The notes beneath the pieces were generated by a model, which was not told the origin of the DNA, did no database searches, and saw only the letters and a program-made list of their open reading frames with translations. A stretch of 64,000 bases of DNA from Isoetes taiwanensis. Taxonomy: Eukaryota; Streptophyta; Lycopodiopsida; Isoetales; Isoetaceae. A program made the translations under genes and the position numbers. Shown in pieces: positions 30,510 to 55,947 of this stretch. Location of the stretch: contig JAJEKV010000066.1 of the NCBI GenBank assembly GCA_021234155.1, forward strand, positions 7,092,118 through 7,156,117, given 5' to 3'. Each line of letters starts with the position of its first letter. Positions within the stretch are counted from its first letter, which is position 1.

Positions 30510-31130
30510 TTATGCTACCTAGGTTCAACATGCCAATGAAGTCCCCAACATGCCACCCGGCGGATTCACCAATATTCCTACCAAGACATTCACCAAATGC
30601 ACCACATGATCCACCACACATGCAACTATTTGCATCACCAAACATGTTGGTCAATGGAAGTCAAACATGTAACAAAGGTCATGTAAAGGTTTTCAAGTAC
30701 AAGGTGGCTCAAATATGCCACCTAGGCTCCGAATACGCCAAGGTGGCTCAAACATGCCACCTTGAAGCCCCAACATGCCACGAAGCTCCAACACATGCCA
30801 CCTATGATTCACCACATGATTCCCACCAAATGCACCACATGATTCTCACCACATACACCATTTGTATCACCAAACATGTTGGTCAATGAAAGTCAAACAT
30901 GTAACAAAGGTCATGTAGCCTAGCGACAAGTCGTATGGCTCAAATATGCCAATTAGTCAAACATGCCATGTGTGGCTCAAACATGCCACCTAGGCTCCAA
31001 ATACGCCACGTGAAGCTCCAAAGATGCCACCTATGATTCACCACATGGTTCACCAAAATGCACCACATGATTCACCACATGCACCCATTTGCATCACCAC
31101 ATCTATCAATGCATATGTAACACCACATTG
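30510..31130 (+). repeat. Degenerate array of a CCACCTAGGCTCCAACATG-type motif
   Basis: Short units such as GGCTCAAACATGCCACC and CACCTAGGCTCC alternate with CACCACATGATTCACC units. A larger period of about 230 bp is visible: the block CAAACATGTTGGTCAATG-AAGTCAAACATG starts at about 30,640 and 30,871. The same short motif forms a much larger array at 43.85-45.69 kb and a small one at 40.62-40.83 kb, both inside the LTR retrotransposon. Confidence 0.7.
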
Positions 31131-35499: not shown

Positions 35500-36240
35500 C
35501 ACTACAACATGCTTTCACCCAAAAGCGCCATGAAAATCTTTCTGCAAGAGAATTAGGCATGAGACATCAAGGCTATCAGATCATGTTGGCTGAGTTTGGT
35601 ATGTTGCCATTATTAGAAGTCAAGGACTGGCGCCTACACCTAATTATGTCAACAAAGTTGAGAAGTCTGATAGTACAAGAATACCATGCATTACGGCTTG
35701 AAGAATCAGCTTAAGGGATGGTATAGAGATCTGATGGAATGGTGTGAGAGATGGAACATTAGAGAACAAGATTGGCCAGATACAGATGTTGGCATTCGCG
35801 AATTAGTCCAAACAAAAGTTGTGGATCAGATGTGGCAGAAACAAGGGACAAGGTTTACATTTTACAAGAACGAAGTTAATCCCATGTTAGTCTACTCTGA
35901 CCAGGATTACATTAGATCCCATATTTCCAAAAGGGCGAGGAGTTATAACAAAATACAGAACTAGCTCTCACAACTTCAAGATTGAAACTGGACGTTGGCA
36001 TAATATTCCCAGGGAAGATCGATTGTGCACACTATGCAACTCAGGTGAGGTTGAGGATGAATCTCATGTTTTTCTTATCTGTAGCTGCTATCAAGGAATT
36101 CGGGAGAAACACCATATATATTGACAAAACAAACTTTTTTTCGCTTATGCAAATTGATCCTAATAGATTGGGGGATTTCTTAGTGGAAGTTGATAATCAT
36201 AGACAACTTCTATTGGAAGTAAAATGAATTCATTGTATTT
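35500..36240 (+). pseudogene. 3' part of the split LINE: ORF2 C-terminus with zinc knuckle
   Basis: The frame at 35,686-35,964 gives GWYRDLMEWCERWNI and FTFYKNEVNP. After a stop and a frame change, about 35,964-36,110 reads RTSSHNFKIETGRW, then RLCTLC, VEDESHVFLIC and CYQGIR. This is the SSHxLxIExGRW / RxCxxCxxxxVEDExHxLxxC signature of a LINE C-terminal domain, with a C-x2-C-x8-H-x4-C knuckle. The frame then runs to a stop at 36,227. It is the expected continuation of the LINE whose endonuclease and RT are at 21.3-23.6 kb. Only about 13 bases of 3'UTR remain before an LTR retrotransposon; the rest lies at 55,953. Confidence 0.75.
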
Positions 36241-37800
36241 TGTGACGTTCCAGGATAATATACGGTATGAATACGTATATTATACTGACACGTCACTAGT
36301 ATATGTCAACTTAGACGACATGTACACATCGACCATAAAGGGGTAGTACCCTAGGGTACAACCTTGTGACCCATTATATTGCACATGTTAAGGCCACATG
36401 TGAATATAATATCCTTTTGCCATGTGGCAATAGCCCATTGACCAATCAGGGCCCAGCCCTAAATTCGTGGGGATAAAGGGGCATAAACCCTAAAAGGGAA
36501 ACCCTTTTAGTTCCCAGCCCCCATAAGTCGGATTGGAGCAGCAGTGGACGTCTTCTCGCGTGAACAGTAGCAGAGGAACCGGAATTCCTTAGTCGCAGCT
36601 CGATCCAAGCCAGCAATTGCGAGATTCAGCAGCATGGATGCCTTCAGAGGAGTGGGAGCCAGCCAAGAAGCCGGTTAGTGGTTGATCCGATAGTTAGATC
36701 CGAGTTTTCAGCCCTCATTCCATAGGAATAGTATTCATTCTTAGCTATAAATGACCCCTACGACCTAAGAATGATAGATACTAACAAAGGAACCTAACCA
36801 TGTATGATTAGGTAGATTAGAATAGATGTATTCTATTGTTTCGATTCTGTTGTGATGATATTGTGACATTCTATCGCCACTCTTGTGTATTGGGAAGGGG
36901 GGTAGAGACCCGAGCCCAAGTAGTTGTATGATCATATTTTTAGCCCATTAATTCCCAATTAATGCGGCTCAGGCATAAGAGCCCGCCTGGCCGTGGGTGG
37001 CGGAGCTAGACCGGTGACAAGGGAGGGCTTGTCTAATCGCAGTTGATCCGGTGGCGTAATGACGGCCGGGGAACGGCTGTGAGCTAGGCCTAATACCACC
37101 CGCACTGCGCGAGGGGCGGGGTATGGGCTCGACACTGTGGGGTGATGCGTCATCTTCAAAGTGAGTTCAAGTCGTATATACGCAGCAAAGTGGCTCTCTA
37201 GCTTCGCCCGTGATTAGCATGAACCTTCGGAGGAGAGAGATCTCCCCCCTGCCTCATTGGGAATTTGGGGAGATGCAACCCGGTAGTAGTAGCCCCCTTC
37301 CGAGGCTACGGTGGGGCTCAATACTTTTCAGCCTATCCGCATAGTATGCGGGGAGGGGCGGATGGAGTGGACTACCCAACGGCCATGTTCCTATGCCGCC
37401 CAAATCCATTTGCCATGAATTACATGCGCATTGCTATCCCGGGAGACCCAAAAGGCGTCGATCGATCCCCATGAGTCGAGCACAGGTAGGATCTTCCCTA
37501 TGTCATGTTGATGTCTTGATGTGTGATGCAGCCTCTTTGTGATATGGTGGACCACCCCGAGGTGGGTATATTATTATTGTTTGATGTCATGTGCTCATGT
37601 TTTGTTTACGCTTCCGTTGCTAGGTCGATCAGGGGAGGAGGGATGAATGACACGTCCATTCTTCCCCGTCGGGTTCTTGGCCACCAGCGAGGGCCCGATG
37701 TTAGGTGGACGGCCTCACATCAGCGGGCAGATGCTGATTTGAGGGATGATCTCCAGTTTGTATACGATCGGGGCATCGTATATGAGCCGGGGCCGTCACA
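36241..37800 (+). repeat. Left LTR of gypsy-1
   Basis: 1,560 bp with perfect 7-bp inverted ends TGTGACG/CGTCACA. The first ~560 bp differ from the right LTR by about a dozen substitutions, but 36,960-37,510 (GC-rich) differs by many small indels and changes. The LTR should hold promoter and poly(A) signals. A CATAAACCCTAAAAGGG stretch near 36,481 is identical in both LTRs; I cannot place the TATA box with confidence. Open frames in it are shadows. Confidence 0.95.
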
Positions 37801-37801: not shown

Positions 37802-37813
37802 TGGTATCAGAGC
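37802..37813 (+). promoter_or_regulatory. Primer-binding site for initiator Met tRNA
   Basis: TGGTATCAGAGC begins one base after the left LTR and is complementary to the 3' end of plant initiator methionine tRNA, the usual primer of minus-strand cDNA synthesis in Ty3/gypsy elements. Confidence 0.95.
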
Positions 37814-38034: not shown

Positions 38035-38102
38035 GACTCCAAGAGTGCGCCAGAGTGTAGTTAGGCCCCAACCTAACCCCCTCCTTGCGCACTCTTAGAG
38101 TC
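38035..38102 (+). other. Nested hairpin, copy 1
   Basis: Outer arms GACTCCAAGAGTGCGC and GCGCACTCTTAGAGTC pair over 16 bp with one mismatch. Inside, GTTAGG and CCTAAC form a second 6-bp stem. A second copy lies at 38,246-38,311. As RNA this would fold into a long hairpin near the start of the element transcript. Packaging or dimer signal, small-RNA source and leftover inverted repeat are all possible. Confidence 0.7.
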
Positions 38103-38245
38103 GTCCCTAGAAGTGACCTCAAAACTTGATTATAAATTACTCAAAGAGTAAAAATAATAATAGAATCTTGCTTAAAATGCTTGAATTAGTGGGAAACGAC
38201 ATGTAAATTGTTTAAATTGGATGTGTTGGAGCAGAGAAGGCCAAC

Positions 38246-38311
38246 GACTCCAAGAGTGCGCCAGAGTGTAGTTAGGCCCCAACCTAACCCCCTCCTCGCG
38301 CACTCTTAGAG
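38246..38311 (+). other. Nested hairpin, copy 2
   Basis: Same stem-loop as at 38,035 (period 211 bp), with one outer arm slightly decayed (GAGGC in place of GAGTC). It lies about 90 bp upstream of the telo-box/TATA segment preceding the H3-tail-like ORF. Confidence 0.7.
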
Positions 38312-38402
38312 GCGTTCGAAGAAACAGGACCAAACAAGACCCCAATTTCATCCAAGATGAGGAGACTTTCGCCAGCAAACGAACCAGACGACTACTTCGA
38401 CC

Positions 38403-38459
38403 AAACCCTAAAAATTAAACCCTATAAATTACGAGACATAGGCTCATTTTTTAGGGTTT
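38403..38459 (+). promoter_or_regulatory. Telo-box / TATA promoter-like segment
   Basis: AAACCCTAA at 38,403-38,411, TATAAATT at 38,423-38,430 and TTAGGGTTT at 38,451-38,459. Telo-boxes in both orientations near a TATA box are typical of plant histone, ribosomal-protein and translation-factor promoters. The segment is 75-130 bases upstream of the ATG of the H3-tail-like ORF, so it may be a captured host promoter. Confidence 0.5.
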
Positions 38460-38533
38460 CTCACGTGATTCCGCGAGCTCCTTCTGTTAGCCGATCTTTT
38501 GGCGCCCTGCTCCAAATCGAACACTGTCATACA

Positions 38534-38674
38534 ATGGCTAGGACAAAACAGACCGCCCGCAAGCCAAAGAAGGACGATAGGCCCAGCGCCCAAGTGCTTG
38601 CCGCAGAACAGAAGCTCAAAAATGCTGATTTGTATTCCTTGAGGGGGTACAGGACCGCTGCAACAAATCCCTAA
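38534..38674 (+). CDS. 46-codon ORF starting with the histone H3 N-terminal tail
   Basis: The predicted peptide starts MARTKQTARK, identical to the first ten codons of histone H3 (ARTKQTARK after Met removal). This includes the K4 and K9 positions and the ARK motif that chromodomain proteins bind when K9 is methylated. After residue 10 it departs from H3: PKKDD, then a charged, helix-like AAEQKLKNADLYSLRGYR, ending AATNP. The ATG context ACAATGGCT is the plant optimum, and the frame is open upstream to 38,357. The last seven codons and the stop lie in the first unit of a ~168-bp tandem repeat. It is on the sense strand of gypsy-1, between PBS and gag. It may be the captured 5' end (promoter, UTR, first codons) of a host H3 or CENH3-like gene, or a functional H3 mimic. 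Protein production is unproven. The ten-residue identity is seen directly; the meaning is inference. Confidence 0.55.
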   Translation: MARTKQTARKPKKDDRPSAQVLAAEQKLKNADLYSLRGYRTAATNP

Positions 38675-39110
38675 GCATTAATGTCATAGGACCACGCAAA
38701 ATCCTAACAATATCCTAACATTTTGGATATTGTTAGAGAAAGACCATTAAGCCACGCCTACATTTTTGCATAACAAACCATTAAGAATTGTGAGATGTAT
38801 TTCTTTATGGAGGAAATGACCATTGCAACAAATCCCCAAGCATTAAAATGGCAAGACCATGCAATATCCTAACATTATTCCCCCATTTTGGATATCGTTA
38901 GTGGAACACCATTAAACCGTTCCTACATCTTGGTATAATTTAGACCATTAAGAATTTGAGATGTAATTGTTTATGGGGAATAGGACCATTTCAACAAATC
39001 CCCAAGCATTATAAAATGGCAAGACTACGCAATATCCTAACATTATCCCCCCATTTTGGATATCATTAGTGGAACACCATTAAACCATGCCTATATCTAG
39101 TTGGTACTAA
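38651..39110 (+). repeat. Three tandem units of ~160-170 bp
   Basis: Units start with AGGACC/AGGAAATGACC near 38,651, 38,811 and 38,982. They share CAACAAATCCC, AAGCATTA, ATCCTAACA, TTTTGGATAT and ACCATTAA blocks. The first unit supplies the C-terminus and stop of the H3-tail-like ORF. Confidence 0.8.
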
Positions 39111-39201
39111 GGTTCGCTATAGACGATCCAATAGTTATCCACGTCATCCAATGGTTTTAATTGTATCTAATTTATCTTATCCAATGGTTCTTTCTAAGAA
39201 T

Positions 39202-39437
39202 GCAATGGTTCTTTGAAAAACAAGATAACTTATTGCACTTAGACGATTTGCACTAAGAATCCAATGGTTCTTTGAAAAACAAGATAACTTATTGCATTTA
39301 GACGATTTGCACTAAGAATCCAATGGTTCTTTGAAAAACAAGATAACTTATTGCACTTAGACGATTTGCACTAAGAATCCCATGGTTCTTTGAATAACAA
39401 GATAACTTATTGCACTTAGACAATTTGCATTAAGAAT
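39202..39437 (+). repeat. 59-bp tandem repeat, four units
   Basis: CAATGGTTCTTTGAAAAACAAGATAACTTATTGCA... repeats at 39,202, 39,261, 39,320 and 39,379 with an exact 59-bp period and only a few differences. Looser ancestor units (CCAATGGTT) precede it at 39,148 and 39,181. Confidence 0.9.
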
Positions 39438-39439
39438 TA

Positions 39440-40615
39440 GAGATGTAATTGTTGGAGCCATCAAGCAAAATACCACAGCTAACACCTTAAACGTAAACAC
39501 AAACTCAGGAAAACCTTGCTCGGAAAAACCTTGCTTCCGAGTCATGTGCACAAAGGTATCAGAACTCCTCTGCATGGTAATCCTCTAAACTAGTGGCTAG
39601 ACGTTATAGTTTGGCAGCTCCCCAATTCCAAACAATTGCATCAGAATATCTTTGTCATACTTCTGCATAGGAATCCTTTAAATCGTTGACTAACCTTCCT
39701 AAGGAGTATGGATGCAATAGAATTGACAATTCCTATTTGAAACAGTTAACTATCCATTTGGCACTACTTAATTTGTTTATCTGAAATTATTTTCTCGGTC
39801 TAGACTTAGTGTGATTTATCTAGACGATGGTGAAAATTAGTTGCTCGTGTCCTATCGGGGAAAGTTCAGCCCCTACCGTAGCAGTAACCTCTTTAACGGT
39901 CTTATCCACTAACTTTCTTATCCTATTTAGATTAGTGGGTAATGCCTAACTATCTAATTCTTTCTCATTGTAACTTCCTTTTTTAAGATACTTCGTTTGA
40001 GGATTTCTCAATATGCTTATGGATGATATTGCATTATGCATATGTAGGTTTTTGCAGGCAGCTATATTGGGTGGAAAGATTATCTCTTAAGGGCCTTTAT
40101 TCTTGTTTAAATGGCAATCTTGCTGGAGTTCTGCTGTAAGTGCTTTCTTCCTTTTTTACAGGTTATAATCTCCATAGAAAACTTTGTATCAAAGACATGA
40201 CTGTATGAAGAATCATAATATCTTAGACAACTTATGCAACAAGCAAACAATTGTTAAGACTCCTAAGAGAACCTCCACATCCGCATGAATGTTTGGTGCT
40301 TATGACAAAGCGGGATTCTTTGCACCATCTTGTGCTTTCGAATGCATGAAAATGCGAATGACATGTAGCCCATGCATGGGTATAATTGATGCACGGGTAT
40401 AATTGGATGAAGCGGGTAGTAGCCCATGCATTGATATAATCAGAGGCCTAGTTTCTACCTTTGGGATGTCATTGCCAACAGGGATGTCATCTTCCTTATA
40501 ACACGGACTCGGTACCAACTTACCCTAAGATCCATATCTTATGGTCTATATTTAAGTTTCATCCGGACTCGGTTCTTGCACTAATCTTGATATGGGAAAA
40601 ATAAAATCAACATAA
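39440..40615. other. Leader DNA without recognisable feature
   Basis: Non-coding, internal to gypsy-1. A short duplicated phrase (TAGCCCATGCAT) occurs near 40,365 and 40,421. No other signal seen. Confidence 0.4.
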
Positions 40616-40619
40616 CTCG

Positions 40620-40830
40620 ACATGCCACGATTAGGCTCTAATTACACCTCGCACAGCAACATCGCCAACGTGGCTCCCACCATACCACCTAGGCTCTAAC
40701 ATGCCACCTAGGGGTCAAGCATGCCACATCAGCTCCAACATGCCAAATACGCGGCTCCAACATGCAAGTTCTCCAACATGCCAATGTGGGTCAGGCATGG
40801 CACCTAGGCTCAAGCATGCCATCTAGGCAC
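40620..40830 (+). repeat. Short array of the CACCTAGGCTCCAACATGC motif
   Basis: About ten degenerate ~20-bp units (CATGCCACCTAGG, GGCTCCAACATGCC), a small relative of the large array at 43.85-45.69 kb and of the array at 30.5 kb. Confidence 0.7.
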
Positions 40831-40845
40831 TCCGAGTGGGGATAT

Positions 40846-43816
40846 GGCACGTAAACCCTGTGCCTTGCCAGGTTATTGTAGGGTTTACGATATGGAGGTC
40901 GGGCTTTGGTTCGTTGCACTTGGGACATGGTCGGCATTTCTTTGTTGAAAACACGCAGGATAGAAATTGCAAGAATGGGATTTTGATTTATTCTCCTCCT
41001 AGTTTTGCAATTAAAAGTGTAGAGCGCCTTATGCAGTAGCAAAATTGTTTGGGGTCACTCGGATTGGCGACTAGATCGAAACTCTGTTATTTCAGTTCTC
41101 ATGGCTCCCCATGCATGTTTAGAAATGGTCCACCTAGTTATCAAAAGTCGACCACGTTTTGGCCTTCAAAATGTAAACCACAATGCGTTGCTAGGTTATT
41201 GTAGGGTTTACGTTATGGAGGTTGAGTTTTATTCAGCACACGAGACATGGTCGAGAAGGCGAGTTGAAAACAAGAAGCAATAGAAACCGGCGAAATGGGG
41301 TTTGGATTTACCGAGGCGGGCTTTCCTACCCGGTGCTCCTCAGGGAGGGCAAATGCCAATGCCTCCCTTCCGGAGCCGGTTTCCCTATCCGACCGTTGAA
41401 TTCTCCATTCAAGTAACTTGCCCGGCGGGCTCAAAAAATTCAAGATCTGTCAGGAGAACATATCAAACCGCAAAGTGTCTGCGGTCGACCCGTGTAGAAA
41501 CCCAAGTGTTTTGTCGTTCGGGCAGTTACAAAGGCTCGGAATGGAGATTTGACTTCGCCATGTCGTCAGAAACGTGAAATTACCCTAGGGACCAAGTTAC
41601 ACGGTCATCTTTTGCAGCAAAAGAAGCACGAACCCTCTACATGGCAGTATTCTGCACCCTCCGCTAAGGACAATTCACTACGAACATGTTGGACATGAGC
41701 TACTTTGGTGCTTAGGGGCAGGGGTGGTCTTACGCCCACGAAACTTGGTCTCGGGGGGTAATGTCGATGTTTCGAGTCCGTTGGCGGTAAGATCACGATT
41801 CGGGGGTGGGATAGTTGCCCGTCCGTGGCCAGGGACCCTCCAGAGAGGACCTTTGGGTCGAACTTCTGCTGGAAGGTTTTAGGGCTCCGTCTTCTGGCAT
41901 CAACGCCCTCCCACTACCTCATGACATTGTGCAAGATCCTGGTCCAATCTGGCTAGGGTATGGCCTCCAAAACGTAAACCCTGTGCGTTGCTAGGTTATT
42001 GTAGGGTTTACGTTATGGAGGTCGAGTTTTATTCGATTGCACGAGACATGGTCGAAGAAGGCTGCGGTTGAAAAAACAAGCAATAAGCCCGGCGAAATGG
42101 GGTTTGGATTTCTGAGGCGGGGCTTTCCTACCGGTGCTCCTCGGGAGGGAAAATGCCAGTGCCTCCCTTCCCGGAGCCCGGTTTCCCTATCCGACCATTG
42201 AATTCTCCATTCAAGTAACTTGCTTCGAGCAGGCTCAAAAAAATTCAAGATCTGTCCGGGAGAACATATCAAACCGCAAAGTGTCCTGCAGTCGACCGTG
42301 TAGAAACCCAAGTGTTTTGTCGTTCGGGCAGTACAAAGGCTCCGGAATGGAGATTTGACTTCGCCATGTCGTCAAAAACGACAAAATTACCCTAGGGACC
42401 AAGTTACACGGTCATTTTTGCAACAAAAGAAACACGAACCCTCTACATGGCGTAATACGCACCCTCCGCTAAGGACAATTCCTCTGAACATGTTGGACAT
42501 GAGCTACTTTGGCTTAGGGGGCGGGGTGGTCTTACGCCCGCGAAACTTGGTCTCGAGGGTAATGTCGATGTTTGGAGTCCGTTGGCAAAAGTCGAGATCC
42601 ACGATTCGGGGTGGGATAGTTGGACGTCAGGTGGCGGGGACCCTCGAGAGAGGACCTTTGGGTCGAACTTCTTACGGTGGATGGTGGTTTTTGGGGCTCA
42701 GATCTTACGGCATCAGCGCCCTCCCACTACCTCATGACATTGTGCAAGATCTGGTCCAATCGGCTGGGGTATGGCCTCCAAAACATAAACCACGTGCAAT
42801 GCTAGGTTATTGTAGGGTTTACGTTATGGAGGTCGAGTTTTATTCGATTGCACACGAGACATGGTCGAGAAGTTGCGATTGAAAACAAGAAGCAATAAGC
42901 CCGGCGAAATGGGGTTTGGATTTATCCTCCTCTCGGTGTCGCAATTAGAAGTCAAGAACACATTTTGTAGTAACAAATTTTTTTGGAATGATTCGGGATC
43001 GCCAATAGATCCAAAGTCTGTTATTTTGGTTGCCATGGCTCCGCATGCATGTTCGAAAAAGGTACACCAGGTCCCAAGTGCAACTGACCACGTTTTGGCC
43101 TCCATAACGTAAACCCTACAATAACCTGGCAAGGCACAGGGTTTGCATTTTGGAGGCCATACCCTAGCTAGATTAAACCAGGATCTTGCACAATGTCATG
43201 AGGTAGTGGGAGGGCGTTGATGCCAGAAGACGGAGCCCTAAAACCTTCGAGGCGGTTCGACCCAAAGGTCCTCTCGGAGGGTCCACGGCCCGCGGACGGG
43301 CAATTCTCCCACCCGGGCTGTGATCGACTCACGCCAGCGAACTTCGAGACATCGACATTACCCTGGAGACCAAGTTTCGTGGGCAGAAGACCACCCCTAC
43401 TCCCGGAAGCGCCAAAGTAGCTCACGTCCAACACGTTCGTAGTGAATTGGCCTTAGCGGAGGGTGCAAAATACTGCCATGTAGAGGGTTCGTGTTTCTTT
43501 TGCTCAAAAAATGACCGTGTAACTTGGTCCCTAGGGTAATTTTCTTTTTTTCGACGACATGGTGAAGTCAAATCTCCATTCAGGAGTCTTTGTATGCTTG
43601 CCCGACGACAAAACACTTGGGTTTTCCGCGGTCATTGCAGGACACTTTAGCGGTTTGATATGTTCTCAGGCCCGGATCTTGAATTTTTGAGCTGCTTTCG
43701 AAGCAAGTTACTTGAATGGAGAATTCAATGGTCGGATAGGGGAAACCGGGTTCGGGAAGGGAGGCACTGGCATTTGCCCTCCCGGAGGAGCACTGGTAGG
43801 AAAGCCTGCCTCGTTA
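40846..43816. repeat. Composite ~0.8-kb repeats, two direct and one inverted
   Basis: The phrase AGGTTATTGTAGGGTTTACG recurs at about 40,869, 41,192, 41,993 and 42,802. Long units run 41,189-41,985 and 41,990-42,795 (period ~805 bp). Shorter sister units (ending in an AAAATTGTTTGGGG/ AATTTTTTTGGAATG section) run 40,846-41,180 and 42,799-43,105. From about 43,107 to 43,816 the long unit returns in inverted orientation, as seen from CCTCATGACATTGTGCAAGAT at 41,919 and ATCTTGCACAATGTCATGAGG near 43,182. A transcript could fold back over roughly 700 bp. Open frames here are incidental. Confidence 0.8.
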
Positions 43817-43849
43817 ACCTTTGTGATGTCAGTCTCACGGGGTGCGGCC

Positions 43850-45690
43850 ACCTAGTCTATAACATGCCACCTAGGCTCCAACATGCCACGGGCTCCAACA
43901 TGCCACCTAGCATGCCACCTAGGCTCCAACATGCCACGGGCTCCAACATGCCACGTGAGCTCCAACATGCCAAGTTGGCTCCAAGCGTGCCACCTAGGCT
44001 CAAGCATGCCAAGGTGGCTCAAATATGCCACCTAGGCTCCAACATGCCAAGGTGGCTTCAACATGCCCTGCGTAGGCTCCAACGTGCCAACTAGGCTCCA
44101 ACATGCCTCATGAGCTCTAGCATGCCACCTAGGCTCCAACGTGCCACCTAGGCTCCAACATGCCACCTCGGCTCCAACATGCCAAGGTGGCTCCAACATC
44201 ACCACCTAGGCTCAAGCGTGCCAAGGTGGCTCAAACATGCCACCTAGGCTCCAACATGCCACCTGCGGCTCCAACATGCCACGTGGGCTCCAACATGCCA
44301 CCCAGCATGCCACCTAGGCTCCAACATGCCACGGGCTCCAACATGCCCGCGTGAGCTCCAACATGCCCGCGTGAGCTCCAACATGCCAAGGTGGCTCCAA
44401 CGTGCCACCTAGGCTCAAAGCGTGCCAAGGTGGCTCAAATATGCCACCTAGGCTCCAACATGCCACGTAGGCTCTAACATGCCAACTAGGCTCCAACATG
44501 CCTCGTGAGCTCTAGCATGCCACCTAGGCTCCAACGTGCCACGGGCTCCAACATGCCACCTAGGCTCAAGTGTGCCAAGGTGGCTCAAACATGCCAACCG
44601 TAGGCTCCAACATGCCACCTGGGCTCCAACATGCCGCGAGGGCTCCAATATGCCCACCTAGCATGCCACCTAGGCTCCAACATGCCTCCAACATGCCACG
44701 TGAGCTCCAACATGCCAAGGTGGCTCCAACGTGCCACCTAGGCCCAAGCGTGCCAAGGTGGCTCAAACATGCCACCTAGGCTCCAACATGCCACCTACGG
44801 CTCCAACATGCCCACGTGGGCTCCAACATGCCACCCAGCATGCCACCTGGGCTCCAACATGCCACCGGGCTCCAAACATGCCCAAGGTGGCTCCAACATG
44901 CCACGTGGGCTCCAACATGCCAGGTGGCTCCAGCGTGCCACCTAGGCTCCAGCGTGCCAAGGTGGCTCAAAATGCCACCTAGGCTCCAACATGCCCACGT
45001 GAGGCTCCAACATGCCAACTAGGCTCCAACATGCCCGTGAGGCTCTAGCATGCCACCTAGGCTCCAACATGCCACGGGCTCCAACATGCCACCTAGGCTC
45101 AAAGTGTGCCAAGGTGGCTCAAACATGCCACCTAGGCTCCAACATGCCACGGTGGCTCAAACATGCCACCTAGGCTCCAACATGCTCCACCTAGCATGCC
45201 ACCTAGGCTCCAAAATGCATGGTCCAACATGCCACCTGAGGCTCCAACATGCCACAGGTCTCTCCAACATGCCACCTAGGCCCCAACATGCCAGGTGGCT
45301 CCAGCATGCCACCTATGCTCCAACATGCCACGTAGGCTCCAACATGCCAGGTGGCTCAAACGCTCTGCCACCCTAGGCTCCAACATGCCACCTAGGCCCA
45401 AATATGCCAAGGTGGCCCAAACATGCATATGCCACATGGGTTCCAACATGCCACTAGTTGGCTCAAACATGCCAAGGTGGCCCAAAAACAGGGCTCCAAC
45501 ATGGGTTCCAACATGCCACCTAAGTTGGTGCCTCAAACATGTCCGCGAGCTCCAACATGCCACCTAGGCTCAAGCATGCCACCTAGGCTCCAACATGCCA
45601 CCTAGGCTCCAACATACCACCAAGGCTCCAACATGCCAAGGTGGCTCAAACATGCCACCTAGGCTCCAACATGCCACCTAAATTCGATGT
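43850..45690 (+). repeat. ~1.8-kb array of ~20-22-bp units (CACCTAGGCTCCAACATGC)
   Basis: Some 80 or more units of about 20-22 bp, varying between CACCTAGGCTCCAACATGC, CAAGGTGGCTCAAACATGC and CACGTGGGCTCCAACATGC. Higher-order blocks also recur: an AGCATGCCACCTAGGC block appears near 43,910, 44,307, 44,663, 44,838 and 45,192. Frames of 60-108 codons on both strands reflect the period not introducing stops; they are not evidence for proteins. Confidence 0.95.
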
Positions 45691-45694
45691 TCTC

Positions 45695-48600
45695 GAGTCT
45701 ATTAGAAGAGCCAATTTATGGATTGTGGGAGATGCCCATTAGATTTGCGGGGATCATATGGAGAGGACATTTGAGACAAACTACTTTCCAAAAGGTGTTA
45801 AGGGTCCGTCTTAAAGCGTCAACAACACCGTCCCTCTAAGTGATGATACTATGCAAAGATCTGTCCAAAGCGACTAATGATTGTCTACTTCCACACAGTG
45901 CGTGGTCGAGAAAAAAATATGATGCATGTACGTGAGTTAAGCGGATCATGCAGCGGCGGTGGCCGTAAACATTCAAAATCTTGAGCACACATTCCATATA
46001 GCAGACCTCATTTTTCTTCACTTTCATAAAGACCTACAAAGACCTATAAATTCCGGTTGAGGAAAATCATGTCGGCCAAAATCGAAATCTTGATTTTCTT
46101 GGACCGAGCGAGGCAAACAATTTGGCATCTTTGGGCCGGTTAAATTGCAAAGCTGGACGGACGATTTGCATAGTCTAGCTTTGGCTTGATTACATGTCTA
46201 GCTTTGCAATTTAACCGTCACACTTAAGTCTAGCATTGGCTTGATTACAAAAAATAATAAACCTATATTGTATATTTTCGATGAAAAGCAATAAAAAAGC
46301 ATCCTATTTAACGTGTCGTGATGGGGGCGAGATGAAGCGGCCTAGATTGCGATCTAGGCCCTATCATCCTATTGGTTTGCCATTAGCGGGCCAGCCGATC
46401 GTGTGTTTTCTTTCCGCCTTACGCAATGGGTGGCTATGGCGATGGCCGGCTATCTGTTTTCTTTTCGCCTGCCTAGTTTGCGCGGTGCTCCTACTCAATA
46501 GGCGGCTATGGTGATGGCAGCCTATCTTTTCCCTTTGCTTCCGGCAAATCCGAAATCGCGACTATGGCGATGGCAAGCTTTGATTGTTTACAAAAATAAA
46601 GATGAATCGGACACTACTCTAGATGCCCAAGCGAACATACGATCCGTCTTCCAACATGTTTTGAGGTTCCATCAAGTAAATCCGGCATGCTTGTTTATTA
46701 CGTAACCGGCATATCTCACGTAGATGATATGCACAGGCCATATTTTGCGCGAGGATGGGATTTGAAATAACAACATTTAAGCCTCAGGGCAGATCTTCCA
46801 AGCAGTATATCGGCTTTGCATTTAGACTATGCATCCCGATCTGTTCATGTCCATCTTTTCCATTTGCTTAGCAAATCCGGTGAAGCGTCCTTGCGACAAT
46901 CAAGATCTTTGATTCGGGTTGTTTGTGGGAGCTCTTAGGTTTCTGCAAAACCTAGCTCTGGAAATGATGCATGTATCTGGTAAGAAAGGCAAACGCCATA
47001 CTACTGCTATTCACGTCATGAAGTCGCCTCCAGTCTAGTATGGCTCTGACGAGTTTCTTTCGATATTTAGATCCGGCCTAAAATGGCTCTGTAGAAGTTT
47101 TATTATGCCGTTTAATCTTCATTGGGGCGCGCAGCGAGAGGATCATGTTGCTAAACCAGACATACGATTGTAAGAAAGTAAAGAAGTTTTTTGTCTGTTT
47201 GATTCTGTATTTGTTTACATATGATCGTGTGATTTGGTGCCTCTTATGTCCAATGCAGAAGCTCCCTGGATTTTATTTTACTTGAAAATCTTTGGCCGGA
47301 TTGGCTATGGTGGATATCCTTTATGGCGAAATGCCGGCCGATCGCATGCCTTTGAAACTTCGGATATGGAATGCTAAGGTGCTCATTTTGCATTTCCATG
47401 GGCTAGACGGGCTATTTCTGGTGAGCACTGTTGATTCGTGCAACCTTGCTGCTGCTGCAGACTCCCATGGCTTGCAACCTTAGCTATTATTCTCGGGCAG
47501 AGCTATTTTTGTTTTCTTGTTCTTTATTTCACTTTTTTGTGTTGCATGCCACTGTCCTTTTCATTGTTGAAGCCAAAATTTTCTTGGAGAACTAAGATTC
47601 CACAATGAACAGGGCATTCGGGTATGGCTTGCATATATTTGGATAGCACAGTATATTTTAGTGGAAGGAATAGCTCCAGATCGAGCATTCAAGGAAGCCG
47701 ACCAGCACAAAGTAATCGGGTCAATACCCTGGCTAATTGAAACAGTTGCAATCAAATTGATGTTAAAGTGATGTTCCACTTGATTTAATGTTTTGAACCT
47801 TAAGGGAACTTGGTTCCCCTGAAAATAATCTTCTGAAATGTTTTGAACTTTAAATGTTTTTGCCTAAGTTAAACCAGTGAAACGGAGTCAAAATTTGGAT
47901 TGCAACTTACAATGCCTTTTATGGACTTGTTTGGGTTCGATTCCCAAAAAGGCTTTTCTAAAATAAATATGAGCAATCAAGAATTCAATGATATTGAAGT
48001 TATATGAGAAACAAAAATATTTAATATATTGACTTTCAAAATGTGGTTATTTTTTTTAACCACTATTGTTTTTAATTAATTTAAAAAAAAACTATGTATT
48101 GTTAGTAAATTGAAAAAAAGGCCATAGGTAGTTTTATTGATTTTTTTGCAAAATAACACTTGAAACAACGTGTCTTTTGTTGATAAAAACAACACTTCTC
48201 AACGTCGCTTTTTATTTTCTACGTGTTCTTTTTTTTTACACTTTCATTTATAGCATTGTAATTTAATTCTTCACGTGTTGTAATTTAGTTTTTCATGTGG
48301 ATTTCTTGAAAAATTATGTATGTTTTTTAGGGAAAATAATGTCAACTTAAAAAACTACAAGTAGAGAAAAAAAAAAACAACACGCATAGAAAAGGAAAAA
48401 ACTTAATGCTGTTTTTAGTTTTCCACATGTAAGAATATTCAAATCTAGATGTGTTATTTAGAAGACAAACAACGATTGGCTCCTCCAAAAACAATAGTCA
48501 AAAAAAACCACACGTTGACAAAAATCGCTAAAAACAACAAAAAAAAAGGGACACGCGTTGACCAAAAATAAAAGGTGCCAAAAACCACCGTGGGGAAATT

Positions 48601-48940
48601 TTTGCCAAAACCTTGTCTCTTTGTGCAAATCCGGATAAACGGGCCACATGGACTTTTGGGGCCATTTTCTTCATTGTTTTTGGCATAAAACAACACTCGT
48701 ACAACAAAAAAAACTGTGGACCAAAAATTGGGGTCGGTGTGTTCGGCAAGGTAGGTTGGTTAAATGGCAGCTCTCATACCTCCCATAGATGGGTGGAAGA
48801 GCTAGCATCCGCCATCAGGGGGATCGGCAAAGGGATATACTCGGGAACTTGGGAAGCGATGGAGGTGTACTGCCCAAGTAAAGAAGTTCCTTGAGGATCA
48901 CCCGGACTATCGATAAATCAATGTGCGGTTAGAACAAAAG
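45695..48940. other. Rest of the long leader; AT-rich, with inverted repeats
   Basis: No gene recognised. An 18-bp perfect inverted repeat (CGGTTAAATTGCAAAGCT at 46,137-46,154 and its complement at 46,200-46,217) encloses a 45-base spacer. CTATGGCGATGGC recurs near 46,434, 46,507 and 46,563. The AT-rich part holds an imperfect inverted pair (GTGGTTATTTTTTT...CTATTGTTTTT around 48,042-48,071 against about 48,490-48,514), possibly a MITE remnant. Confidence 0.4.
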
Positions 48941-48944: not shown

Positions 48945-50215
48945 ATGTCGACCTTGAATTCCAAGCCCAAAGGCGATCATACACCACTGGACAATTCCAC
49001 CGAGGAGCTATTCAAGAGTATTATGCAAGCGGAGGAAGAAATTTTCGCAGATGAGGTCGATCCGCAAGAAATAAAAGCCATGCCGGCAAAGTGGGAAGAA
49101 ACAGCAGAGGACCATAATGCGCAGCCCGGCAGGCGTTCGGCAAGACAAAGGAAAGGAGAAAAAGAGAGCGCCCTTGCAGATCTTCTAGCTCCATCTCTTC
49201 CGACGGCTTCGGATTCGAGCTCGACTCGAGGAGGAAACAAGAAGAACAGCCGGAAGGAAGAAAGAATAACGAGGAGACAGCCAGGCCAATCCGACTACCA
49301 GAAGAAGGTCGACTCGGCCTTAAGTAATGTTTGGAAGGCACGCAAGTTGGAACTTTTTCGGGTTAAAACAGATCAGGGATGGAAGCCGAAGCATGGCTAG
49401 ACGAGATGAGTGAGTACGGAAATGCTTACGGCATGAAAGATAAAGATAAGGGCAGGGTAGCCACCGCTAACCTGAAAGGGGCAGCCCGGATTTGGTGGAG
49501 GGGGTATGCTAAAGCCCATGGAATGAGCAGAGACAAGTGTAGGTTCACAAAGTTCGCAAAGGCTTTCAAAAAGCACTATGTCCCAAGAGAACACAAGTGC
49601 CACCATATGCAAGCATTCCACAGGTTACAACAGGGGAATAAATCCGTACAAAAATATACGGAGGAATTCATGAGGTTGAGGCTATATGTGCCAAAACTCA
49701 GTGAGAGAAGAGCAGTGGAAGGCTATGTGGAGGGCCTGAATGAGGACCTACGGAAGATAGTCCGAGCCCTCAACCCGCGCTCAGTATCTGAGGCGGAAGC
49801 GAAGGCACTGAGCCTACAAGGGACAGGGCCCCAGAAAAGTGAACCCAAGCAATGGTATGACAAAGGAAAAGCAATTGGAGGCCAGAGCCCAAGAGCAAGC
49901 AGTCCGTCGCCTGCAAAGACACCATACACCGGAAATCAATGGAGCTTGGCCGAGAAAAAGTGGGTCGACTTCAAAGATAAAGGACAAGGGGAGGCTCAAA
50001 TTATTCAAAGGCAGTCAAGCGGTTCCTCAACTCCATCCCGAAAAGAAAAGCGGGCAGGAATGTATAGAAAAACGGTTGTGCTTCAGGTGTTTCCGGCCGG
50101 GGGGCATAGAACACACAACGCCCGTTCGTGATCAATGCAAAGACACTTGCGGAGATGGGAGGTTGGGAGACCCCAGCGAGAAGAGGAGGAGGGGCGAAGG
50201 GCGATTATATCCATG
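48945..50215 (+). pseudogene. gag: gypsy-1 gag (capsid/nucleocapsid), frameshifted
   Basis: The first frame, 48,945-49,400, is a charged N-terminus ending SDYQKKVDSALSNVWKARKLE. The next frame, 49,379-50,131, continues with the Ty3/gypsy capsid: MEAEAWLDEM, LKGAARIWWRGYAKAHG, HYVPREH, a QGNKSVQKYTEEFMRLRLYV stretch and the RAVEGYVEGL block. The N-terminus parallels gypsy-2 gag, so one frameshift near 49,365 breaks the gene. The nucleocapsid knuckle CFRCFRPG is near 50,080; one further base shift is needed to read its His, and the last Cys codon is altered. Gag forms the particle in which RNA is copied. The start Met at 48,945 is uncertain. Confidence 0.9.
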
Positions 50216-50224: not shown

Positions 50225-50790
50225 ACATCTTTGCCGCCATAGATGAGAAAGCGCAGAGAGCCAGTACCAAGTAATATCCACGATTGGTAAAATAGCCGCC
50301 AAATCTTTTATAGTAGACTGTGGCAGTTCCCATAATTTCGCATCACCAAGGATGGCACAAATGCTAAAGTTGAAAACACTAAAGTCTAAGCCTGCACCCG
50401 GTAGTGTTAGCCGGTGAGCCATCAGGCACACCACGGCTAAAAAGGGTGAATTTCAATATAGACTTACCTGGTATCAATATTGAAATGGGAGCAGAGGTCA
50501 TGAGCATAGGAAAATATGACCTCATCATAGGTATGGAATACCTCAACCCGGCAAAAGCACAAATAGATTGTGGAGAGCGGAAGGTGAAGCTCACGGTGCC
50601 TAACGGGAAAATCATAGAAATCTCAGGTAAGCAAGTGACACCTATAACGCAATGCATGTCGAGTAAGAAATTACTTAGATGCATCAAAAGGGAGCAAGTT
50701 GCATACATCTTCAAATTAGAACTTCTTTCAAGAAGAGGCACGGAAGATAAAGAAGATAAATCAGTAAGCAAACTACCCAAGTAGGTAGCC
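50225..50790 (+). pseudogene. pol: gypsy-1 protease region
   Basis: Around 50,310-50,345 the frame reads FIVDCGSSHNFASP, the aspartic-protease active site with DCGSS where gypsy-2 has DTGST. Stops lie between it and gag. The later part (frame 50,404-50,784) contains INIEMGAEVMSIGKYDLIIG and MEYLNPAKAQIDCGERKVKL, the second half of the protease fold and the linker to RT. The protease would cut Gag-Pol. The T-to-C change at the active site and the stops argue against activity in this copy. Confidence 0.85.
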
Positions 50791-51690
50791 AAGCTAATAG
50801 AGGAATTCCATGGCTTGTTCCCCGATGAAATCAAGGAGCTTCCGCCATATAGGGGAGTGGAGTGCGAAATTGCACTCGAACCAGGCACTAAGCCCACGAG
50901 TAAGGCACCATATAGAATGACAAACTTCACACGAACTATCGAAAGTTGAAGAAGCAATTGCAAGAGCTATTAGACCTAGGGTTCATAAGACCTAGTGTCT
51001 CTCGTTTGAGCCCCCATCTTATTCGTCAAAAGAAAGATGGAAGCTTGAGGATGTGTATTGACTATCGTCAATTAAACAAACACACAATCAAGAACAAGTA
51101 TGCCTTACCCAGAGCAGATGACCTGATGGATCAGTTACAAGGTGCCAGGGTCTTCTCCAAAATAGACTTAAGGTCTGGATATCATCAAATCAGAATCAAA
51201 GAGGAAGATATCCACAAAAGCGGCCTTAGAACAAGATACCGGCCACTATGAATTCACAGTCATGCCATTTGGCCTATCAAATGCCCCAGCAACGTTCATG
51301 AGACTCATGAACGATATCTTTCGGGAATTCCGACACATTTGTTATCGTGTTCTTCGATGACATTTTGGTGTATAGCAAGTCCCTAGAGGAGCATGTTCAG
51401 CATTTGAGAAGGGTACTTGAGAAGCTGAGAAGACACCAGCTTTATGCGAAATTGTCGAAATGTCATTTCGCCACCGAAAAAGTGGAATACTTGGGGCATA
51501 TCATATCAGCAGACGGCATCTCCACCGATCCGGCAAAGATCCAAGCAGTGATTGAATGGCCAGCACCAAAGAACATACACGAGGTGAGAAGCTTTTTTGG
51601 GCTTAGCGGGGATATTATAGAAAGTTAAGTCAAGAACTTTGCTAAGATAGCACCATCTTAATGAGACCTCACCAAGGCAGAAAAGATAAA
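50790..51690 (+). pseudogene. pol: gypsy-1 reverse transcriptase
   Basis: Frames 50,946-51,251 and 51,347-51,628, joined through a short intermediate frame, carry the RT blocks in order. These are [35 protein letters not shown] (first catalytic Asp), [29 protein letters not shown] (catalytic DD), YLGHIISADGI and EVRSFFGL. Catalytic residues are present, but frameshifts near 50,935, 51,235 and 51,335 interrupt the protein. RT with RNase H makes the element's DNA copy. Identity with gypsy-2 RT is high by eye, so both belong to related subfamilies. Confidence 0.95.
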
Positions 51691-51699
51691 ATTTGGGTG

Positions 51700-52110
51700 G
51701 CACATTGGCAAAAAAGGCGGCTCAAGCAGGATTTGAGAATTTAAAGGAGGCCTTAACAACCGCCCTGCCTTAACATTGCGATCCGGAGAAGGACAAGCTA
51801 GTCGCTAATCGACTTGAGCAAGATTGCGACGGGAGCAGTCTTAATGCAAGAGGAAAGAGTCGTAGCATACGATTCACGAAAGATGAATGACGCAGAGACT
51901 CGCTACCCGACACATGATCAGGAGCTATTGGCAGTGGTAAGAGCTTTAAAGATCTGGAGACACTATCTATTGGGAAGGAAGTTCCAATTAGATACCGACC
52001 ACCAGAGTCTGCAGTACATCTTCACGCAACCATTGTTGAATTTAAGACAAAGAAGATGGATGGAGTTCCTGGAAGAGTACGACTTCGAGATTGTGTACAA
52101 TTGAAACTCA
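51700..52110 (+). pseudogene. pol: gypsy-1 RNase H
   Basis: The frame at 51,814-52,104 contains ATGAVLMQEERVVAYDSRKM, DQELLAVVRALKIWRHYLLG, FQLDTDHQSLQYI and RQRRWMEFLEEYDFEI, the standard Ty3/gypsy RNase H with its catalytic Asp/Glu/Asp positions. The first Asp block (DAS) is altered, reading DLSK across a small shift. One extra Leu codon (PLLNLRQRR) is present relative to gypsy-2. This domain removes the RNA strand during cDNA synthesis. Confidence 0.9.
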
Positions 52111-52129
52111 ATGTGGTCGCAGACGCCTC

Positions 52130-53350
52130 GTCAAGGCACCCCTTAACAACAAGGGTGCATTGCAACGCCATATCAACACTTACCGGTGAGTTTGGCAAGA
52201 AAATAGAAGAAACGCGCCAACAGCCGAGGGGACTTCCGGTGAAGTATGGGCAAGCCTTTCTAAAGAGGCAAAAACGGACAAAGAGAGAGAAGCCTTCAAA
52301 CATTTTAAGAAGGAAGGAAATCTCTTGTACCATAAAAATAAGTTGTGTGTGCCGGAATCATCCGGAGTCAGAAGGTTGATTCTCCATGACACCCACAACA
52401 GCCCAATAGCCGGCCACGCAGGTTTTACGAAAACCTACTTCAAGATAAGAAGTAGTTACTATTGGCCAGGCATGAAGAAGCAGATAGGAAGGTACATACG
52501 CGGAACCAAGGCGGAACAACTACGAATTCCAGGAGCATTAGAGCCATTGCCAGTACCAAACTCCAAGTGGGAGATAATAAGCATGGACTTCATTACAGGG
52601 CTCCCTAGAACCATAAGGAGCAAAGACGCCTTAATGGTCGTAGTCGACAAATTGTCGAAGATGGCGCACTTTGTGCCTTGTAACCGACACGGCATTAGAC
52701 ACAGCGGTGCTATTCACAAAGGAGATTTTTAGACTCCATGGGATGCCAAGAGAAATAATCTCTGATAGAGATTCAAAGTTCATGAGTGCATTCTCGGGGA
52801 TCTCTTCAGCACCATCGGGCCGAAATTGTCGATGAACGCGCTTATCACCCTCGCATGGATGGGCAGGCGGGCGCACCAATCGGATACCGAAGATATGTTG
52901 CGGAATTATATGCGGAACAAGCAATCAAAGTGGGATGACTACATCTACTTGGTTGAGTTTGCATACAATAGCACCAAGCAAGAGTCATCCCAAATGTCGC
53001 CGATTTATGATCAACTACTGGCTATCGATTACTTGACACGGACACTTGGTACAACCCTGTGTCCAAGGTAGAAGTATCCCAGCAGATGCTGCCGAGATGC
53101 AACAATTGGTTGAAGAAGTGCGAGGATACCTCTAGAAGCCGAAAAAGAGCATAGCTGATCGGCACCGAACAGTAAGGGAGTTCCAAGTAGGGGACAATGT
53201 TTGGCTGAAGATAAAAGTCAAACAAGCGAAGCTTCGCATCGGCAATTGCAAGAAGCTTGCTCCAAGGTGGGCTGGTCCATTTAAAATTGTCAAAAGAGTA
53301 GGTAACCAAGCCTACAAATTGGACTTACCAGCACACCTCAAGATCCATAG
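52130..53350 (+). pseudogene. pol: gypsy-1 integrase
   Basis: The N-terminal zinc domain starts at LHDTHNSPIAGHAGFTKTYF (frame 52,325-52,732) but has lost the CxxC part, where RYIRGTKAEQLR replaces it. Core blocks follow: [29 protein letters not shown], a frame-shifted IISDRDSKF (around 52,755), HPRMDGQ in another frame (around 52,843), MLRNYM, and WDDYIYLVEFAYNSTKQ. The C-terminal REFQVGDNVWLKIK, KLAPRWAGPFKI and NQAYKLDLP (53,170-53,335) form the GPY/F-type end. Integrase inserts the cDNA. Missing zinc ligands and frame breaks suggest this copy is not functional. Confidence 0.9.
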
Positions 53351-53403
53351 AGTCTTTTCACGTAAGTCTCCTAAAGAAACACACTCCTAATCCAGAGGAA
53401 GTA

Positions 53404-53664
53404 TTGGAGACACCGAGTTTACTGGAATTAGCGGACGATCAGCTTGAGATTGTCCCTGAGTTTCTTCTCGACCGATCCTATAAGAAGACGAGAAGATCTC
53501 AATTTCTCCAGTACCTTGTGAAATGGACGCACTTACCAGTGGAGGACGCTACGTGGGTACTACAATCAGATCTTGAGAAGCAGTACCCACAATTCATGGA
53601 GCAATGCAAAGGGTCGGTTAGATCACCAAAGTGGTCGACTCGAACCAATGGGCGAATGAGGTAA
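53404..53664 (+). CDS. pol: gypsy-1 C-terminal chromodomain
   Basis: Residues about 19-70 of this frame form a chromodomain: PEFLLDRSYKKTR, LQYLVKWTHLP, DATWVLQSDLEKQYPQF and MEQCKG. The first cage position, usually aromatic or E-I-L in P-E-x-I-L-D-x-R, is conserved as PEFLLDR. The central YLVKW supplies a Tyr and a Trp, and the ATWV position a third aromatic, so an aromatic cage for methyl-lysine is plausible. Chromodomains at the integrase end steer chromoviruses to heterochromatin carrying H3K9 methylation. This stretch is uninterrupted, in contrast to the integrase. The same element carries an ORF beginning with the H3 tail at 38,534. Confidence 0.85.
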   Translation: METPSLLELADDQLEIVPEFLLDRSYKKTRRSQFLQYLVKWTHLPVEDATWVLQSDLEKQYPQFMEQCKGSVRSPKWSTRTNGRMR

Positions 53665-54328: not shown

Positions 54329-54383
54329 CCAAGGTGGGGAGACTCGTGATGCTGCGGACAGCATCAATCCAAGGTGGGGAGAA
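54329..54383 (+). promoter_or_regulatory. Polypurine tract, duplicated
   Basis: AAGGTGGGGAGAA (54,371-54,383) directly abuts the right LTR and is the expected plus-strand primer. A near-identical CCAAGGTGGGGAGA lies 40 bases upstream (54,329-54,342), separated by a GTGATGCTGCGGACAGCATC stretch whose GATGCTG/CAGCATC arms can pair. Confidence 0.85.
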
Positions 54384-55947
54384 TGTGACGTTCCAGGATA
54401 ATATACGGTATGAATACGTATATTATACTGACACGTCACTAGTACATGTCAACTTAGACGACATGTACACATCGACCATAAAGGGGTAGTACCCTAGGGT
54501 ACAACCTTGTGACCCATTATATTGCACATGTTAAGGCCACATGTGAATATAATATCCTTTTGCCATGTGGCAATAGCCCATTGACCAATCAGGGCCCAGC
54601 CCTAAATTCGTGGGGATAAAGGGGCATAAACCCTAAAAGGGAAACCCTTTCAGTTCCCAGCCCCCATAAGTCGGATTGGAGCAGCAGTGGACGTCTTCTC
54701 GCGTGAACAGTAGCAGAGGAACCGGAATTCCTTAGTCGCAGCTCGATCCAAGCCAGCAATCGCGAGATTCAGCAGCATGGACGCCTTCAGAGGAGTGGGA
54801 GCCAGCCAAGAAGCCGGTTAGTGGTTGTTCCTATAGTTAGATCCGAGTTTTCAGCCCTCATTCCATAGGAATAGTATTCATTCTTAGCTATAGGCGACCC
54901 CTACAGCCTAAGAATGATAGATACTAACAAATGAACCTAACCATGTATGATTAGGTAGATTAGAATAGATGTATTCTATTGTTTCAGTTCTGTTGTGATG
55001 ATATTGTGACATTCTATGCGCCACTCTTGTGTATTGGGAAGGGGGGTAGAGACCCAGAGCTCAAGTAGTTGTATGATCATAATTTTAGCCCATTAATTCC
55101 CAATTAATGCGGCCTGTGCATAAGAGCCCGCCTGGCTGTGGGTGGCGGAGCTAGACCGGCCGACAAGGAGGGCTTGTCTAATCACGGTTGATACGGGCGG
55201 CGTAATGGACGGGGGAACGCCGTGAGCTAGGCCTAATACCCCGGCGCTGCGTGAGGGCGGGGTATGGGCTCGACACTCGTGGGGTGATGCGTCATCTTCC
55301 GGTGAGTTCAAGTCATTATCTGGCGGTGGCTCTCTAGCTTTCGCCCGTGATTAGCATGAACCTTACGGAGAGAGATCTCCCCTGCCTCATTGGGACGGGG
55401 AGATGCAACCCAGTAGTAGTAGCCCCTCTGGCTATTCACCCGGCAGGCTACGGTTAGGCTCCAATACTTTTCAGCCTATCTGCATAGTATGCACAGGAGG
55501 GGCGGATGGAGTGGACTACCCAACGGCCATGTTCCTATACCCGACCAAATCCATTTGCCATGAATTTCATGCGCATTGCTATCGGAGACCCCTAAAGCTG
55601 TCGGGTCGATCCCCATGAGTCAGAGCCTGGGTAGGATCTTCCCTATGTCATGTTGATGTACTGATGTGTGATGCAGCTACTGTGATATGGTGGACCACCC
55701 TTCGAGGTGGGTATATTATTATTGTTTGATGTCATGTGCTCATGTTTTGTTTACGCTTCCGTTGCTAGGTCGATCCCGAGAGAGACGGGATGAATGACAC
55801 GTCCATTCTTCCCCGTCGGGTTCTTGGCCACCAGCGAGGGCTCGATGTTAGGTGGACGGCCTCACATCAGCGGGCAGATGCTGATTTGAGGGATGATCTC
55901 CAGTTTGTATACGATCGGGGCATCGTATATGAGCCGGGGCCGTCACA
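54384..55947 (+). repeat. Right LTR of gypsy-1
   Basis: 1,564 bp, colinear with the left LTR over its whole length, TGTGACG to CGTCACA. The right-flank TATTT completes the target duplication. Differences from the left LTR concentrate at about 55,090-55,650. Confidence 0.95.

Follow-up and report, generated by a model that had tools for sequence, protein, structure and literature searches.

A histone H3 variant gene carried by LTR retrotransposons of Isoetes taiwanensis and its truncated copy in a Ty3/Gypsy chromovirus

The window, the whole 64,000-nucleotide stretch of Isoetes taiwanensis DNA that was analysed, contains a Ty3/Gypsy chromovirus with an LTR pair (92.5% identity), a target-site duplication (TSD), a primer binding site (PBS), a polypurine tract and a chromodomain at the C-terminus of integrase. 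The gag, reverse transcriptase (RT), RNase H and integrase pieces lie in Gypsy order in decayed frames, and the chromovirus named as host element in the original prediction is confirmed. Its features are:

36241..37800, plus strand: 5′ LTR (TGTGACG...CGTCACA), preceded by the TSD TATTT at 36236-36240
37802..37813, plus strand: primer binding site TGGTATCAGAGC, read from the sequence, with a tRNA assignment that we presume to be of the initiator-Met type
38035..38323, plus strand: leader with a hairpin-forming unit of 78 nt in two copies (38035-38112 and 38246-38323, 94%)
38403..38505, plus strand: promoter-like block upstream of the histone start, with what we take to be telo-box motifs (38403, 38417 and, on the minus strand, 38452), TATAAAT at 38423 and a presumed E2F-type site, TTTGGCGC, at 38498
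38534..38629, plus strand: surviving histone H3-variant codons 1-32, MARTKQTARKPKKDDRPSAQVLAAEQKLKNAD
38630..38674, plus strand: read-through of the frame into a 165-bp repeat, ending in TAA
38603..39098, plus strand: 165-bp tandem repeat array, copy 1 overlapping the end of the histone piece
38630..48741, no strand assigned: 10-kb block, mostly repeats, replacing the remaining histone ORF and most of ORF2
48742..48924, plus strand: remnant of the ORF2 3′ end, matching relatives (L014 7248-7428)
48945..50131, plus strand: gag, frameshifted (Retrotrans_gag, E=1.4e-16)
50247..53068, plus strand: decayed pol with RT, RNase H and integrase pieces and a protease-like piece (by eye)
53302..53661, plus strand: integrase C-terminus with chromodomain (PF00385, E=3.2e-10)
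54371..54383, plus strand: polypurine tract, read from the sequence
54384..55947, plus strand: 3′ LTR, with the TSD TATTT at 55948-55952

When the chromodomain was aligned by eye to HP1, aromatic cage residues one and three were absent (group II type); this chromodomain evidence comes from the window element alone and not from families B and C described below. PBSs of the tRNA-Met type have been described for Beta chromoviruses (PMC3605345). Adjoining the 3′ end of the element, a second, related Gypsy element on the minus strand (56001-59291, gag-RT DNA ~72% identical) may have inserted into it, and the direct repeats 59125-60841 and 62114-64000, which lie ~3 kb apart and are 95-99% identical, are either a young LTR pair or a tandem duplication. 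Long degenerate arrays with a unit of ~19-20 bp resembling GCCACCTAGGCTCCAACAT occupy 43847-45680 and 30700-31032 and occur also near 40620-40828, while big direct and inverted repeats (83-89%) at 41160-43817 give a fold-back structure within the element's insert.

On the sense strand, between the PBS and gag, a 46-codon ORF (38534-38674) with the start site ACAATGGC begins MARTKQTARK and has the translation MARTKQTARKPKKDDRPSAQVLAAEQKLKNADLYSLRGYRTAATNP followed by a stop. The exact H3 N-terminal tail reported there stood up to scrutiny: under a first-order Markov model 8.7e-9 occurrences of MARTKQTARK are expected in the window, and the next best among its 2883 ATG-started 10-mers matches the H3 start at 5 of 10 positions. 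A search for the ARTKQTARKP pattern in a prokaryote contig collection (stated size 257 billion bases) returned two matches, neither of which sits in recognisable histone sequence. Chance codings of ARTKQTARKP do occur, but only at the scale of that collection, and the Markov expectation together with this control rules out a chance match as the source of the window's MARTKQTARK. The two bacterial codings (L001:6064-6092 and L002:645-673, one preceded by methionine) are a handy control for short peptide matches in general.

Beyond codon 10, similarity of the ORF to canonical H3 was not significant (shuffle p 0.14-0.95 over ten comparisons), in agreement with the complete divergence after the tail that had been described. 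An alignment of codons 11-31 that caught the eye as residual H3 homology was rejected when shuffling gave it no significance, and a supposed resemblance to ribosomal protein eL35 was dropped. Residues 11-32 are a conserved linker of the element itself. From 38630 onward the window copy is repeat DNA, and similarity to relatives returns at 48742, in the end of ORF2. The 46-codon ORF is present as first described, but only codons 1-32 (38534-38629) are gene and codons 33-46 are repeat: what survives here is the front of a complete histone gene, which the 10-kb repeat block interrupts after codon 32. The histone gene is dead in the window copy, in which no H3-type histone fold was found. Searches of phage, plasmid and viral contigs gave no relative of the finding and protein database searches gave no candidate, with no match for gag at E<=1e-5 among 754 candidates; because even gag had no match there, that protein database seems to lack coverage of such elements, and its blanks say little.

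The window's own genome assembly (1,658,258,908 bases in 1110 contigs) was then searched with the 46-aa peptide, giving at least 125 matches at E<=1e-3 among 150 scored of 813 candidates. Most of these matches cover positions 1-32 or 1-33 of the peptide, and open frames 390-482 aa long contain many of them; the family copies sought are there, although many others are broken, with shorter frames. Among the first seven relatives (L004-L010), three encode the full protein (L004, L009 and L010, with 388, 400 and 394 aa), two have frames that break in the fold (L006 and L007) and two break early (L005 and L008). The family A protein, 388-400 aa long, starts with an H3 tail and a K/R/E-rich linker, continues with a stretch rich in acidic residues and proline, and ends in an H3-type fold, which matches Pfam Histone at E=6.4e-22 in L014 and E=1.8e-21 in L015 and has histone H3 as its best PDB matches. 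An H3/CENH3-type histone within an LTR element had been foreseen, and we regard the identification of an element-encoded histone as practically certain. Two narrower readings offered at the outset fall away: a captured 5′ exon, because open-frame relatives encode a complete histone, and a short peptide in its own right, because the window ORF is the truncated front of the gene for this protein.

The family A tail is exact over H3 residues 1-9 (after Met) and departs from residue 10 on; K4 and K9 are kept without S10, K14, or the K27 and K36 contexts, and a full canonical tail with K14, K18, K23, K27 and K36 was not found. The fold retains R49, R52, R69, R72, R83, C110, H113, K115, R116, T118, K122 and D123, which we take to be contacts to DNA, H4 or H3′, while R63, F84, R129 and several further H3 positions are replaced. 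Fold and linker blocks carry a net positive charge.

Twenty family A loci of 10 kb each, chosen among the tail matches for long open frames, were used to place the gene within the element. The LTR ending at the leader start is full-length in 16 of the 20 and partial in three (in L027 a 78-base piece only), and gag lies within the fetched 6 kb downstream in 19 (absent in L024). The order is LTR, PBS, hairpin-unit leader, histone ORF, hairpin-like sequence again, ORF2, gag and pol, with an LTR-to-gag distance of ~4.6 kb in L014. This arrangement, in which the histone ORF is followed by ORF2 and a separate gag, rules out the H3 tail as the N-terminus of gag. Because related elements carry long, intact versions of the histone, their sequences suggest that these mobile elements make their own chromatin protein.

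In the loci examined, ORF2 is placed after the histone ORF and before gag; it is 503 aa long in L014, includes one 60-residue stretch with a net charge of -22, and gave no significant Pfam or PDB match. Its start motif is present in 16 of the 20 A copies, and it is open to at least 500 aa in 2 of those 16. The ORF is common to A and B at E=4e-7 (a comparison of few sequences) and to A and C with 28% identity over 465 aa, E=3e-24 (one 9.5-kb locus). A form similar to the 78-nt hairpin unit recurs behind the relatives' histone ORF (L014 ~5327-5606); the unit could serve as a signal for packaging or dimer formation, or mark the borders of a captured cassette.

The promoter-like motifs are found at similar positions in most of the 20 relatives, with an E2F-type site at ~-36 in 16, a telo box in 19 and TATAAAT in 17 within the 300 bases upstream. 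In the upstream regions (~600 bases) of seven host H3 genes, a telo box was found in none and an E2F site in one, and these regions show no similarity to the element save a 16-base match (E=0.57). On these motif counts and this lack of similarity, a captured exon 1 with its host promoter, descended from those seven H3 promoters, is unsupported. The E2F and telo block, whose distance from the start hardly varies, would on its motifs suit S-phase expression.

Selection was measured as pooled pairwise NG86 dN/dS in the 15 of 20 A copies with a long frame and fold motif, dropping L011, L012, L016 and L024 (altered or cut frames) and L028. The values were 0.016 for residues 1-10, 0.036 for residues 1-32, 0.135 for the linker (33-170), 0.287 for 171-230, 0.071 for 231-295, 0.040 for the fold and 0.122 for the whole, with pS of 0.26-0.52; in the fold, pS was 0.295 and pN 0.015. 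The A copies were chosen by their tail, which biases the tail value low, whereas the fold was unused in the choice save for the demand for a long frame; dN/dS over the ORF is low for the fold, and for the tail subject to this bias. The same bias applies to codons 1-10, where one amino-acid change was found in all among 21 sequences (the window and the 20 tail-picked copies). The fold of family B gave 0.031 (6 copies), and the capsid core, for comparison, 0.033 (7 copies). The histone ORF is under purifying selection across copies, these having been picked for long frames.

A fold-based search that was blind to the tail (150 scored of 8133 candidates) gave 29 copies with a fold identity of at least 88%, no stop and a frame of at least 391 aa (391-482 aa), and in all 29 a tail match lay in frame, which for family A runs counter to the absence or frameshift in most copies that would have refuted the original prediction. 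The tail identities of 75-97%, with one match from residue 6, say nothing on the exactness of codons 1-10. Three further long-frame folds, at 74-77% identity, are without a family A tail match. The 29 of 29 covers long frames, the majority of the 150 having shorter ones; the candidate numbers of 8133-9022 in this and the following searches are a first look and not confirmed copies, and all copies come from one genome, drawn from its top-scoring matches and long frames. Assembly errors may account for some frame breaks, since nanopore and Illumina reads plus optical mapping underlie the assembly (PMC8566536).

With canonical H3 as the query, 150 of 9022 candidates were scored, giving at least 15 full-length H3 genes at 96-98% identity, a count in which intron-bearing genes could be missed, and at least 135 core matches at 71-86%, of which 129 are stop-free in the match. 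Six family B copies, fetched by long-frame choice, encode 409-420 aa with an N-domain, a linker and an H3 fold. In the two copies compared, the fold shares 86% identity with host H3, and it matches Pfam Histone at E=2.4e-41 in L041. The N-domain starts MA(I/N)(T/I)K(S/R)APDP, and H3 tail residues 1-9 were found in none of the six. The starts MANTKSAP and MAITKSAP (L041 4473-5696; L035-L040) could be a decayed MARTKQTA, and ARKS occurs in the later linker of two of the six (L039 and L040). Two 10-kb B loci have an LTR-like end, a PBS, the histone ORF and ORF2 pieces, and L042 also has gag, protease and integrase. The family-B-type fold signature MPKDLALA(R/S) occurs at 530 genome sites and the MARTKQTARK pattern at 1051 (the pattern admits S for R, which is absent from the 100 sites listed), with reversed controls of 0 for both. 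The 1051 sites far exceed host H3 and family A, and many sites of both kinds are decayed.

Family C has the exact tail followed by linkers unlike those of family A. Thirteen exact-tail C-type sites, taken from first-listed, mostly small unplaced contigs, had a fold nearby in 12 cases (none in L056), and in none of the 13 is the frame between tail and fold free of stops and frameshifts; the decayed L058 shows the order tail, fold, ORF2, gag, pol. The C fold search (150 scored of 8756 candidates) gave matches all at least 91% identical to the query, five with a stop, and open frames up to 488 aa. When six C copies were picked by fold and a frame of at least 424 aa, blind to the tail, the 180-base piece reached an in-frame tail in three, all reading KQTARK (earlier residues lie outside the fetched piece), while each of the other three either starts downstream of the tail or is shifted in frame. 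In contigs C1-C906, 3 of 12 C folds have the exact tail upstream, all 12 frames being under 310 aa. Other linker types (KVVPPGY, KAGERP) follow the exact tail in L052, L055 and L062, and there is therefore more than one C-like family. The order of H3 ORF, ORF2 and gag recurs in at least three families in the loci examined.

In an unrooted tree of the folds, A and C group together on a branch (99.9/100) away from host, human and yeast H3, CENP-A and the CENH3s, and B forms a clade (94/93) beside H3 with weak placement (55/60), a pattern that fits either two separate captures or a single old one followed by replacement. Like plant CENH3, with its LIPxAxF-like motif and variable N-terminus, A and C have a motif, LIPRA(A/P)F; unlike it, they combine a loop 1 of H3 length with the exact H3 tail, and neither the longer loop 1 nor a place in the CENH3 clade was found in A or C. 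The family A fold is 46-50% identical to plant CENH3, no closer than to host H3 (49%). The B fold is 86% identical to host H3; the A and C folds are too diverged for descent from a host H3 gene to be traced. Host H3 itself (L031) has A31, Y41, S87 and L90, the signature of non-flowering plant H3 (PMC4357034).

The best explanation, to which we give a probability of about 0.6, is that the histone gene is owned by the retrotransposon and that its protein is incorporated into nucleosomes at or close to element DNA; the chromatin mechanism as such we would put at even odds. The strongest hint of mechanism is the conservation in family A of the fold residues for pairing with DNA, H4 and H3 together with residues 1-9. 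The element H3 variant would be produced in dividing cells, pair with H4, and enter nucleosomes at the locus or on incoming cDNA, possibly with ORF2 as its dedicated carrier. With K4 and K9 in its tail but without S10, K14 and the K27/K36 contexts, part of the host silencing marks could not be written, while K4/K9-dependent factors would still bind. Most transposable elements of bryophyte models carry H3K9me1 and H3K27me1 (PMC10952607), and for this reason an H3 without K27 could matter to the element. Counting against this explanation, many copies are dead, ORF2 is rarely open and its acidic stretch has only 60 residues, and the family A fold has replacements at R63, F84, R129 and further H3 positions. 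One tail-based mechanism cannot serve all families, since family B is without the H3 tail, and the cage residues missing from the chromodomain speak against integrase simply docking on the K9-methylated tail of its own element.

The CENH3-like motif of A and C, and a chromodomain in the same element, would also suit a targeting factor, in which the histone is a chromatin tether whose fold enters preferred nucleosomes while its tail or linker brings in capsid or integrase. We consider this unlikely, given the H3-length loop 1, the place of A and C outside CENH3 in the tree and the incomplete cage. Somewhat less likely still is a decoy, a soluble H3-tail protein that would tie up the host's K9/K4 writers, readers and erasers, its fold serving nuclear retention and stability. 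The recurrence of H3 residues 1-9 before differing A and C linkers, at sites that were tail- or pattern-picked and are biased accordingly, speaks for it, as do the three KQTARK readings from fold-picked C copies; but the fold is strongly constrained too, nucleosome-contact residues included, and family B has no such tail. Condensation of RNA or cDNA by a basic histone inside the virus-like particle would draw on the positive charge of fold and linker and on a separate ORF upstream of gag, but it needs neither conserved histone-pairing residues nor the tail, and the gag-pol of a relative (L015) has its own CCHC motif, recognised by eye (the Pfam zinc knuckle score, E=0.015, misses the cut-off), which makes this role improbable. 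That the gene is a functionless passenger, host histone DNA captured and copied along, agrees with its loss or breakage in the window and many other copies and with the known LTR capture of host fragments by maize Bs1 (PMC13317346), but is very improbable in view of the gap between pS and pN in the fold, the long open frames of the 29 fold-selected copies and the identical gene order in three diverged families. A histone owned by the element and acting in nucleosomes remains our preferred reading. Its widest form, that an LTR superfamily owns its nucleosome through a K4/K9-tailed H3 (in B with the tail replaced) and an ORF2 chaperone, thereby escaping K27-dependent silencing, is tentative and falls somewhat short of even odds.

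Viruses and host proteins are known to carry H3 tail mimics, with H3 tail residues on a non-H3 backbone; here, the backbone has a real histone fold. The nearest likeness is to viral histones, especially the single H3s of DNA viruses (PMC9145170), in which a mobile agent encodes a putative nucleosomal H3. Those H3 cases are from DNA viruses and this one is from an LTR retrotransposon, with a tail-and-linker or N-domain part of ~290 aa fused to the fold and hundreds of sites in one plant genome; a term search of that review's text gave 0 occurrences of 'retrotransposon' and 'retrovirus'. Maize Bs1 and other plant LTR captures (PMC13317346) likewise place host-type coding sequence in an LTR element, but the segments in Bs1 are reported to fall short of full-length ORFs, whereas here a complete domain is selected across families and accompanied by a shared second ORF. 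Plant chromoviruses (PMC3605345) share the order LTR, PBS, gag, pol and integrase with chromodomain, to which two ORFs are added here, both located after the PBS and before gag; the first encodes a histone. Among the open-licence PMC matches listed (preprints being outside the scope), none describes a retrotransposon-encoded histone by title or abstract, in keeping with the novelty originally supposed. In the Isoetes genome study, repeats with BLASTx similarity to plant proteins were purged from the repeat library (PMC8566536), a filter that would drop H3-bearing elements, which may have been overlooked for that reason. Pipelines that discard host-protein-like repeats can mislead, as can counts of H3 genes in such genomes.

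To our knowledge, the carriers of core histones described so far are cells and DNA viruses. If our reading is true, a superfamily of LTR retrotransposons that owns an H3 under selection would join them as a third. It would also serve as a natural experiment, showing which regions of H3 are important for a parasite under silencing, residues 1-9 recurring in A and C while the remainder of the canonical tail is gone, and the question of whether transposons can own chromatin would become directly testable.
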